Below are positions 651 through 50,966 of a stretch of DNA of 64,000 nt, piece by piece (the stretch's first letter is position 1; every line of letters begins with the position of its first letter). The position numbers were made by a program, and so were the translations under genes. The notes beneath the pieces were generated by a model that saw only the letters and a list, made by a program, of their open reading frames with translations, had not been told where the DNA came from and searched no databases. The stretch is from Janibacter cremeus (GTDB lineage: Bacteria > Actinomycetota > Actinomycetes > Actinomycetales > Dermatophilaceae): the NCBI RefSeq assembly GCF_013409205.1, contig NZ_JACCAE010000001.1:558001-622000 (forward strand), read 5' to 3'.

Positions 651-673
651 GAACCGAAGCTCTCGCCGGCCGG

Positions 674-729
674 CCCCCCTTCGAGGCTCGCGCCCGGGGG
701 CGCTCACACCTCAGGACACCGCCTTCGTC
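674..729. repeat. Dispersed intergenic repeat, copy A (3' of infB)
   Basis: This copy lies between the IS end and the infB stop. It shares two blocks with copy C inside cobIJ: CCCCCCTTCGAGGC (674-687) and the 23-base block at 707-729. The internal GCGCCC/GGGCGC pair (690-695, 698-703) makes a GC-rich hairpin just downstream of infB that could act as its terminator, although no T-run follows. Confidence 0.7.
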
Positions 730-22054: not shown

Positions 22055-23670
22055 GCGGGCGCTTCTACGGCGTGGGCATCGGCCCCGGCGACCCCGAGCT
22101 GATCACCCTCAAGGCCGCCCGGCTCATCGCCGAGGCGGACGTCATCGCCTACCACGCCGGCGCCGGCAAGCAGTCGATGGCACGGTCCATCGCCGCCGGT
22201 CTGATCCCCGAGGGCGTCGTCGAGGAGGAGCTGCGCTACCCCGTGACCACGGGTACGACCAACCACCCGGGCGGGTACTACGGGGCGCTGGCCGACTTCT
22301 ACGACGAGTGCTCGCAACGGCTCGAGTCGCACCTCGCGGCCGGTCGAACCGTCGTCGTGCTCGCAGTCGGCGACCCGTTGTTCTTCGGGTCCTTCATGTA
22401 CGTCCACGACCGACTCTCCCCGCACTACCCGACGCAGGTCGTCCCGGGGATCACCTCGCTGTCGGCGGCGACCGCAGCCGTGGCCACCGGCCTGTGCCGC
22501 CACGAGGACACCCTGACCGTCCTGCCCGGCACCCTGGCCGTGCCCGAGCTCGCCCGGCGCCTGGCCGACACCGACGCCGCGATCATCATGAAGCTCGGTC
22601 GCACTTTCGCCGGAGTGCGTGAGGCACTGCGCCGGGCGGGGCTGCTCGAGCGTGCCGTGTACGTCGAACGCGCCTCCGGCACAGGGCAGGTCGTGCTCCC
22701 CGCCGCCGAGGTGGACGAGGGCCGGGTGCCCTACATGTCGCTCGTCGTCGTGCCCGGTGAGGGGCTGCGGGACGATGCCGCCGGACGAGCGGCCGACTTC
22801 GTGCGGATGACGGCTGGGGCGGAGGGCGCCACCGGCGCAGGAGAGGTACTGCCCCCCTTCGAGGCGCCCACGCGGCACGTGGGACCCACTTCGTCGCACC
22901 TCAGGACACCGCCTTCGTCATCGTCCGGCACCGTGCACGTGGTCGGCCTCGGCCCCGGCCCGGACCGCTGGCTCACGCCGGAGGCCTCCGACGTCCTCGG
23001 CTCGGTCGCGCACGTCGTCGGCTACGGGCCCTACCTCGCCCGGGTACCGCAGCGCGAGGGCCTCACCCGCCACGCCAGCGGCAACTCCGTCGAGCTCGAC
23101 CGCGGCCGACTCGCGCTCGACCTGGCGAAGGGGGGCGAGGACGTCGCCCTCGTGTCCGGCGGCGACGCCGGTGTCTTCGGGATGGCGACGGCACTCTTCG
23201 AGTCCCGGGATGCTGCGCTGACCGAGGACCGCGGCTACGCGGACGTGCCGGTGAAGGTCGTGCCCGGGGTGACCGCGGCGCACGCCGCGAGCGCCCTCGT
23301 CGGTGCCGTCCTGGGCGGGGACCACGCCCTGGTCAACCTCTCCGACAACCTCAAGCCGTGGGACGTCCTCGCTGACCGCCTGATCGCACTTGCCACCCAC
23401 GACATCGCGATCGCGCTGTACAACCCGCGCTCGCGCTCGCGCCCGGACACCCTCGGTGCGGCGCGGGACCTGCTCGTGGACGCGGTCGGCCCCGGACGGG
23501 TCGTCGTCGTCGCCCGGCACGTGGGGCGGGACCAAGAGTCCGTATCGGTGTCGACTTTGGGCGAGCTCGACGTCGAGGCCGTCGACATGGGCTGCCTCGT
23601 GGTCATCGGTGCCTCGAGCACGCGAGTCACCGATGACGGCCGGGTCTGGACGCCGCGCTCCGTGGGCTGA
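22051..23670 (+). CDS. CobI-CobJ fusion methyltransferase (C-20 and C-17)
   Basis: This 539-residue protein fuses precorrin-2 C20-methyltransferase (1 to about 250; GVGIGPGDPELITLKA, AVGDPLFFGSF, VPGITSLSA) with precorrin-3B C17-methyltransferase (about 294-539; VVGLGPGPDRWLTPEA, VSGGDAGVFGMA, NLSDNLKPW, LYNPRSRSRPD). CobIJ fusions are known in actinobacteria. The unusual part is the linker (about 250-293): residues 268-290 are encoded by a copy of an intergenic repeat that also occurs downstream of infB. CobG, CobH and CobIJ act in close succession, in line with their coupling. Confidence 0.95.
   Translation: MSGRFYGVGIGPGDPELITLKAARLIAEADVIAYHAGAGKQSMARSIAAGLIPEGVVEEELRYPVTTGTTNHPGGYYGALADFYDECSQRLESHLAAGRTVVVLAVGDPLFFGSFMYVHDRLSPHYPTQVVPGITSLSAATAAVATGLCRHEDTLTVLPGTLAVPELARRLADTDAAIIMKLGRTFAGVREALRRAGLLERAVYVERASGTGQVVLPAAEVDEGRVPYMSLVVVPGEGLRDDAAGRAADFVRMTAGAEGATGAGEVLPPFEAPTRHVGPTSSHLRTPPSSSSGTVHVVGLGPGPDRWLTPEASDVLGSVAHVVGYGPYLARVPQREGLTRHASGNSVELDRGRLALDLAKGGEDVALVSGGDAGVFGMATALFESRDAALTEDRGYADVPVKVVPGVTAAHAASALVGAVLGGDHALVNLSDNLKPWDVLADRLIALATHDIAIALYNPRSRSRPDTLGAARDLLVDAVGPGRVVVVARHVGRDQESVSVSTLGELDVEAVDMGCLVVIGASSTRVTDDGRVWTPRSVG
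22852..22919. repeat. Dispersed repeat, copy C (forms the CobI-CobJ linker)
   Basis: CCCCCCTTCGAGGC (22852-22865) and the 23-base block at 22897-22919 are identical to copy A (674-729). The 16 bases ending CGCACCTCAG are also shared with the palindromic copy D near 50.9 kb. In frame it encodes PPFEAPTRHV...SSHLRTPPSS. Confidence 0.85.
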
Positions 23671-50854: not shown

Positions 50855-50884
50855 CGTGACCCCGCGATGGTCGAGGCGCGAACT

Positions 50885-50962
50885 GGCTTCGAGGCTCCTT
50901 CGTCGCACCTCAGCCACCGGTGGTTGAGGTGCGAGGCCGCCTGCGGCCGACGCCTCGAAGCC
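50885..50962. repeat. Large palindromic repeat, copy D of the dispersed family
   Basis: Outer arms GGCTTCGAGGC (50885-50895) and GCCTCGAAGCC (50952-50962) are perfect. An inner 28-base palindrome (50905-50932), centred on ACCGGT, has a single G-T mismatch, and a smaller GCCGC/GCGGC pair lies between. It shares blocks with copies A, B and C. It lies just after the barstar stop and may serve as its terminator. Confidence 0.85.
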
Positions 50963-50966
50963 ACGC

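Follow-up and report, generated by a model that had tools for sequence, protein, structure and literature searches.

A short dispersed repeat in the CobI-CobJ linker of a fused cobIJ gene in Janibacter cremeus

The fused cobIJ gene of the Janibacter cremeus genome studied here (G000, one contig of 3,307,489 bases; other labels with G denote other Janibacter genomes) joins two methylase domains through DNA that is also a dispersed repeat, a 68-69 nt stretch at 22851-22919 of the window, which is the whole 64,000-nt stretch analysed (positions 558001-622000 of the contig). This raises the question of whether the repeat created the fusion, as a sequence-only reading had proposed, or entered a gene that was already fused. 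We favour the second answer, the insertion of a short, modular and probably mobile repeat into an existing cobIJ fusion, and give it a probability of about 0.88.

The linker repeat and its family

Both methylase domains are intact, as the sequence-only reading held. In profile searches, the CobI model NF004647 covers residues 2-238 and the CobJ model TIGR01466 covers residues 296-538, each over its model cut-off, and each half has stand-alone solved relatives, none of which covers residues 239-290. The insert (Table 1) corresponds to residues about 269-288. Outside the linker, 11 aligned Janibacter CobIJ proteins are 85-87% identical to the G000 protein.

Table 1. Features of the cobIJ locus and related repeat copies in the window
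Feature	Position	Strand	Basis
cobIJ, fused precorrin-2 C20-methyltransferase / precorrin-3B C17-methyltransferase, 539 aa	22051..23670	+	profile matches
57-nt insert CTTCGAGGC...CACCGCC in CC^TTCG, encoding 19 residues (FEAPTRHVGPTSSHLRTPP region)	22857..22913	+	empty site in sister species
Hairpin module GCCCACGCGGNNCGTGGGACCCA within the cobIJ insert	22866..22888	+	repeated across G000
23-nt 3' core of the repeat family	22897..22919	+	window and genome matches
TTCGTC, right half of target motif C(n)TTCGTC	22914..22919	+	3' arm of small hairpin repeat in five relatives
Element copy in one arm of the infB transcription terminator	673..729	+	shared exact bases
Related two-armed palindrome sharing the half-unit TTCGAGGC...CGCACCTCA	50874..50965	+	shared bases, fold

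As RNA, the 68-nt linker stretch is not strongly palindromic (fold z 0.11 against dinucleotide shuffles), and the sole hairpin in the insert, CCCACG...CGTGGG, is short and internal. Five of the six reading frames of the insert are open, which is ordinary for its composition (2,337 of 5,000 shuffles had equally few stop-containing frames). A known RNA family at the linker was rejected, since the single Rfam match in window 22600-23100 (E 0.57, 14.1 bits) lies far below its gathering score of 45, and a search of plasmids and phages with the 68-nt stretch gave no match. Protein searches limited to the inserted region, which are blind to the peptide in proteins of other length or in another frame, returned CobIJ and nitronate monooxygenase (NMO) of G000 and, beyond these, only GlgX of the same genome (E 4.5e-3) and another NMO (E 5.5e-3).

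The linker shares 15 identical bases (22851 / 673) and a further 23 (22897 / 707) with the copy downstream of infB; the sequence-only reading had counted the 23 correctly and the shorter run as 14. The 16 bases it reported in common with the 50.9-kb palindrome are present (22889 / 50898), and that copy is strongly palindromic as RNA (z -5.68 against dinucleotide shuffles). Taken by itself, a 15-base match to the 50.9-kb copy carries little weight (as many as two matches at <=2 mismatches turn up in 3 of 100 shuffles), whereas the 23-mer at <=3 mismatches has two matches in the window and none in 100 shuffles. Searches of G000 at <=3 mismatches gave 20 matches to a 31-nt core and 34 to the 23-nt core, and the reversed-pattern controls gave none. 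The further copies that had been expected therefore exist, and the 34 core matches against a control of 0 bear out the proposal that the linker is a dispersed repeat, now predicted to be read as protein.

Six of the 34 core matches sit in two tandem arrays, and one, at 2123097, is without the 5' half and is probably fortuitous; merging the former and dropping the latter leaves 29 elements, to which the hairpin module (23 matches at <=2 mismatches; control 0) adds two, for about 31 distinct elements. By eye, we recognised four more stretches with the same ends and a different interior (L190, L192, L195 and L200), as well as one more family copy in the opposite arm of the infB terminator. The element starts with a C-run followed by TTCGAGGC and finishes with CACCGCC-TTCG. 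The long form carries GCCCACGCGGNNCGTGGGACCCA at the position where the short form has TC, and the insert is accordingly 57 nt (19 residues) or 36 nt (12 residues); one intergenic long form, L004, is one base shorter than the other long forms. The tandem arrays of element units lie at 767631-767701 and 975566-975664 of G000, with periods of 24 and 38 nt.

Copies are clustered, with 7 of 31 falling within 66 kb (707-771 kb of G000), a density reached by 18 of 20,000 random placements. The intervals 0-558 kb and 2826-3307 kb are free of all 31, and one degenerate relative occurs at 239.5 kb. Within the genus, the core at <=2 mismatches is found in 12 of 16 genomes, with 22 matches in G000 and 0-10 in the others (control 0). 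A wider sample of the family covered 119 genomes, only 5 of which are Janibacter, from 53 genera. A 21-nt core is carried there by 3 genera, with 7 genomes between them, and the hairpin module by 14 genera, with 30 genomes; the controls gave two and four stray matches, respectively.

Age of the fusion and empty target sites

The cobIJ gene is present in 15 of the 16 Janibacter genomes and forms one ORF in 14 of these. In the remaining one (G013, L033), the gene is open through the linker and its frame breaks about 20 codons into cobJ, through sequencing error or decay. Among the best 80 of 572 named loci, both domains share one ORF in 30 (27 Actinomycetota and 3 Acidobacteria). The fusion is found in 27 of the 29 actinobacterial loci, the other two being cut by contig ends, and no single ORF holds both domains in the 48 proteobacterial loci. 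Actinobacterial CobIJ fusions have the same domain order in one ORF, and the 57-nt linker insert distinguishes G000. The fusion occurs without the insert in the three Acidobacteria and in, among others, Nocardiopsis, Nocardioides, Streptomyces, Dietzia, Frankia, Actinomadura, Embleya and Aeromicrobium; inspection of outgroup linkers by eye revealed no such repeat. Since CobI and CobJ share one ORF in relatives that lack the insert, the repeat entered an already fused gene, and the proposal that the repeat made the fusion is ruled out. The sequence-only reading had expected relatives with separate cobI and cobJ or with a repeat-free linker; linkers without this insert were found, and separate genes were found in no close relative. 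Nor was the peptide found to be encoded by non-repeat DNA in any relative seen. An origin by read-through of an intergenic spacer that once held the repeat would account for a linker made of repeat DNA in a family that also has intergenic copies, but the single ORF without insert in other Janibacter genomes, the fused actinobacterial loci among the best 80 of 572 and the repeat-free outgroup linkers leave it with next to no probability.

We sorted the Janibacter CobIJ linkers by eye, with G002 outside the sorting. Five (G008, G006, G005, G013 and G004) hold a small hairpin only, and G000 holds the same small hairpin plus the element. Half-palindromes of the form TCGAGG..GGCCG..CACCTC occupy the linker in G003, G007, G015, G012 and G010, another half-palindrome with the hairpin module does so in G011, and an inverted half-palindrome in G001; no repeat was recognised by eye in G009. 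The CobIJ linker is thus a tolerated and recurrent landing site, at which sister species hold other palindromic repeats.

The inserted element is one of the family of about 31 copies, and relatives retain the empty target C(n)TTCG. At cobIJ, the five relatives with a short linker have a small hairpin ending in C(n)TTCGTC, with a C-run of five in G008, G005, G013 and G004 and of four in G006, where G000 reads C6 TTCGAGGC ... CACCGCC TTCGTC. The NMO gene has ACCCCCTTCGGC in the nearest relative and a 57-nt insert in G000; of the 13 relatives aligned, 12 have the empty site and G004 carries its own 36-nt insert at the identical point (the comparison omits G002, which has no close match, and G014, which is in two pieces). 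A 57-nt insert in glgX is confined to G000 among the 16 genomes. Its exact target, ACTCCCCCTTCGCCC, was seen in one relative only, the nearest (G001), and most of the other 15 genomes lack it.

The CN-hydrolase gene carries two copies, compared in 15 aligned genomes that omit G014. At the N-terminus, MAPDSLRLAG in two relatives corresponds to MAPDS-PSRLLRHTSGQR-LRLAG in G000, a 36-nt insert five codons past the start that is also present in G009 and G007, in the latter with an extra codon. The internal, antisense copy occurs in G000 only, and its target is deduced. In ECH_2, G000 has the insert, and G004 and G013 have different palindromic repeats at or near that place (L283 and L285, misaligned at contig edges, were left out). 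In relatives, the infB terminator hairpins are intact and carry six Gs and six Cs; the element has entered both arms of this terminator in G000 and its 3' arm in G005. Wherever an empty relative is available, the orientation of the element relative to the target is fixed. Forks in the tree, from which four of the 15 genomes were left out, are weakly supported, so we did not count independent insertions from it.

An IS30-family transposase (NF033563, 275.9 bits) lies at window 1 to about 659, within an element of about 1.5 kb at about 557146-558689 of G000 (L289). The two copies of this IS30 element (L289 and L290) are 99% identical, and each sits in the loop of a terminator hairpin, adjoining a repeat copy.

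Reading frame and mode of spread

The expectation of many intergenic copies was right as to number and wrong as to place, because at least 12 of about 31 copies lie inside genes, as judged by listing ORFs and searching profiles, GC3 of the 300-nt flanks having proved too noisy for gene calling. A single Pfam profile stretch crosses the element in NMO, CN-hydrolase, ECH_2 and SRAP, and a single NCBIfam stretch does so in maltokinase, NuoM, FadJ, DnaX, GlgX and an ABC ATPase, the matches of maltokinase, FadJ and the ABC ATPase being below their model cut-offs. In cobIJ and glpD, the element lies between domains. Other copies sit at gene edges, either in the C-terminal tail of LigA or N-terminally in genes that include GNAT, ABC and GlmM-like ones; apart from that of CN-hydrolase, the starts of the latter genes are putative. 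No stop was found inside the element-carrying ORFs checked. All ten antisense copies that we assigned to genes or their edges share one frame, which could reflect codon usage at the target together with a TGA in one frame. In-frame insertion of the repeat in cobIJ and about ten other protein genes is well supported by these comparisons, and its reading at the protein level is predicted.

Where the target of a coding site could be seen directly, the C-run grows from n to n+1 in five of five cases (cobIJ, NMO, glgX, and the CN-hydrolase N-terminus in both G000 and G009). The additional C makes the net insert length a multiple of three, and it is 57 or 36 in the directly compared coding sites. 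In the infB terminator, the C-run stays at six in three of three insertions, and the net length is not a multiple of three. The one-sided exact probability of five of five versus none of three, calculated by hand on only eight events, is 1/56. For intergenic copies, a weaker arm-to-arm proxy gives +1 in L003, L058, L189 and L075, +2 in L004 and L020, and 0 in L015; as the proxy is mostly +1, the extra C is also common outside genes. Selection on the frame of insertions is accordingly likely rather than demonstrated.

Empty and filled sites suggest that the element is mobile. It may be copied, not excised, into sites matching its own flanking CCTTCG, most likely through short-homology copying or a putative enzyme; frame-shifting insertions would be lost to selection and frame-keeping ones would persist as neutral loops. 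At cobIJ, a small hairpin, GACGAAGGGG..CCCCTTCGTC, would have come into the linker, and the 57-nt element would then have entered its 3' arm.

We consider enzyme-free spread, by short-homology template switching or ectopic conversion from CCTTCG-flanked copies to CCTTCG targets, to stand at even odds. CCTTCG on both sides of the element, the fixed orientation, the same joints in the tandem arrays and the clustering described above all fit short-homology copying, and the infB insertions keep their C-run as plain homology copying predicts, but six bases offer little homology and the extra C at coding sites needs slippage as well as selection. A dedicated, unrecognised transposase or site-specific recombinase acting at CC^TTCG is possible, although we hold it rather doubtful: a strict target motif, the fixed orientation at sites with an empty relative and the re-use of an identical site in different species speak for such an enzyme, whereas terminal inverted repeats are lacking, a longer autonomous relative was not seen, and a profile search for the Y1/RAYT transposase (PF01797) was negative in all 16 Janibacter genomes and positive in 5 of 14 control genomes. 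The last result rules out a RAYT-driven REP. That the insert is an adaptive linker improving channelling between the methylases seems very unlikely; Janibacter CobIJ linkers are longer than most outgroup linkers among the best 80 of 572 loci, yet the element peptide recurs in unrelated proteins, in several frames and on both strands, and the linkers of sister species are unrelated. Returning to insertion of a mobile repeat, we tentatively suggest, at somewhat less than even odds, that the elements form an undescribed class of tiny elements with a fixed motif CC^TTCG, units of 12, 24 and 33 nt and five of six frames open, which would re-use the same protein loops as landing sites across species so that protein linkers turn over, and whose enzyme or copying process would be new.

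Relation to known elements

The nearest parallel is the Rickettsia palindromic element (RPE), a dispersed short repeat found between and inside genes and in frame in many unrelated conserved genes (PMC10969869, PMC2229807). Like the Janibacter element, RPEs and their Wolbachia counterparts are described as extra loops relative to the proteins of relatives (PMC10969869, PMC2229807), and in-frame insertion absent from relatives' orthologues, an RPE trait, is also what we observe. RPEs are reported to be about 105-150 bp (PMC2229807), compared with 36-57 nt here, and the sequences appear unlike; our element also differs in residing in a free-living actinobacterium and in having the fixed target CC^TTCG. 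A long stem-loop with terminal inverted repeats, another RPE feature, was not found in the insert, given its fold z and inspection of its ends by eye. By analogy, the Janibacter insertion appears to resemble RPE behaviour, with a different sequence, phylum and target.

Short repeats tagged GTAG or CGTC, the REPs, also occur in part inside genes such as DNA repair genes, and CGTC REPs are described as having no dedicated transposase (PMC3733652). The Janibacter element likewise lacks a RAYT-type transposase in the profile search above. Its insert does not appear to be a simple stem-loop. CGTC, here part of the target, terminates only 17 of the 34 core matches. The word Actinobacteria is absent from that REP survey (PMC3733652). 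YPAL / RU-2 of Yersinia is described as similarly small and non-AT-rich and as inserting at or beside dyad symmetries (PMC2229807), much as the Janibacter element uses terminator and hairpin arms, but it is 168 bp, with target duplications of variable size and another sequence. The element does not match a MITE, which has terminal inverted repeats and a target site duplication: the ends CTTCGAGG and CACCGCC form no inverted repeat, and the CCTTCG at both ends is partly target. Among the open-licence papers listed, we found no report of Janibacter palindromic repeats, actinobacterial protein-coding palindromes or coding REPs.

In-frame mobile DNA is known mainly from Rickettsia and Wolbachia, where small, drifting populations offer an easy excuse for it. 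The dozen or so in-frame insertions in this free-living actinobacterium, the fixed target motif and the clean empty sites of sister species make the process testable, including the moving step, its rate, and the effect of inserted loops on DnaX, NuoM and CobIJ. They also serve as a warning that linkers and loops in Janibacter gene models may be young and species-specific.
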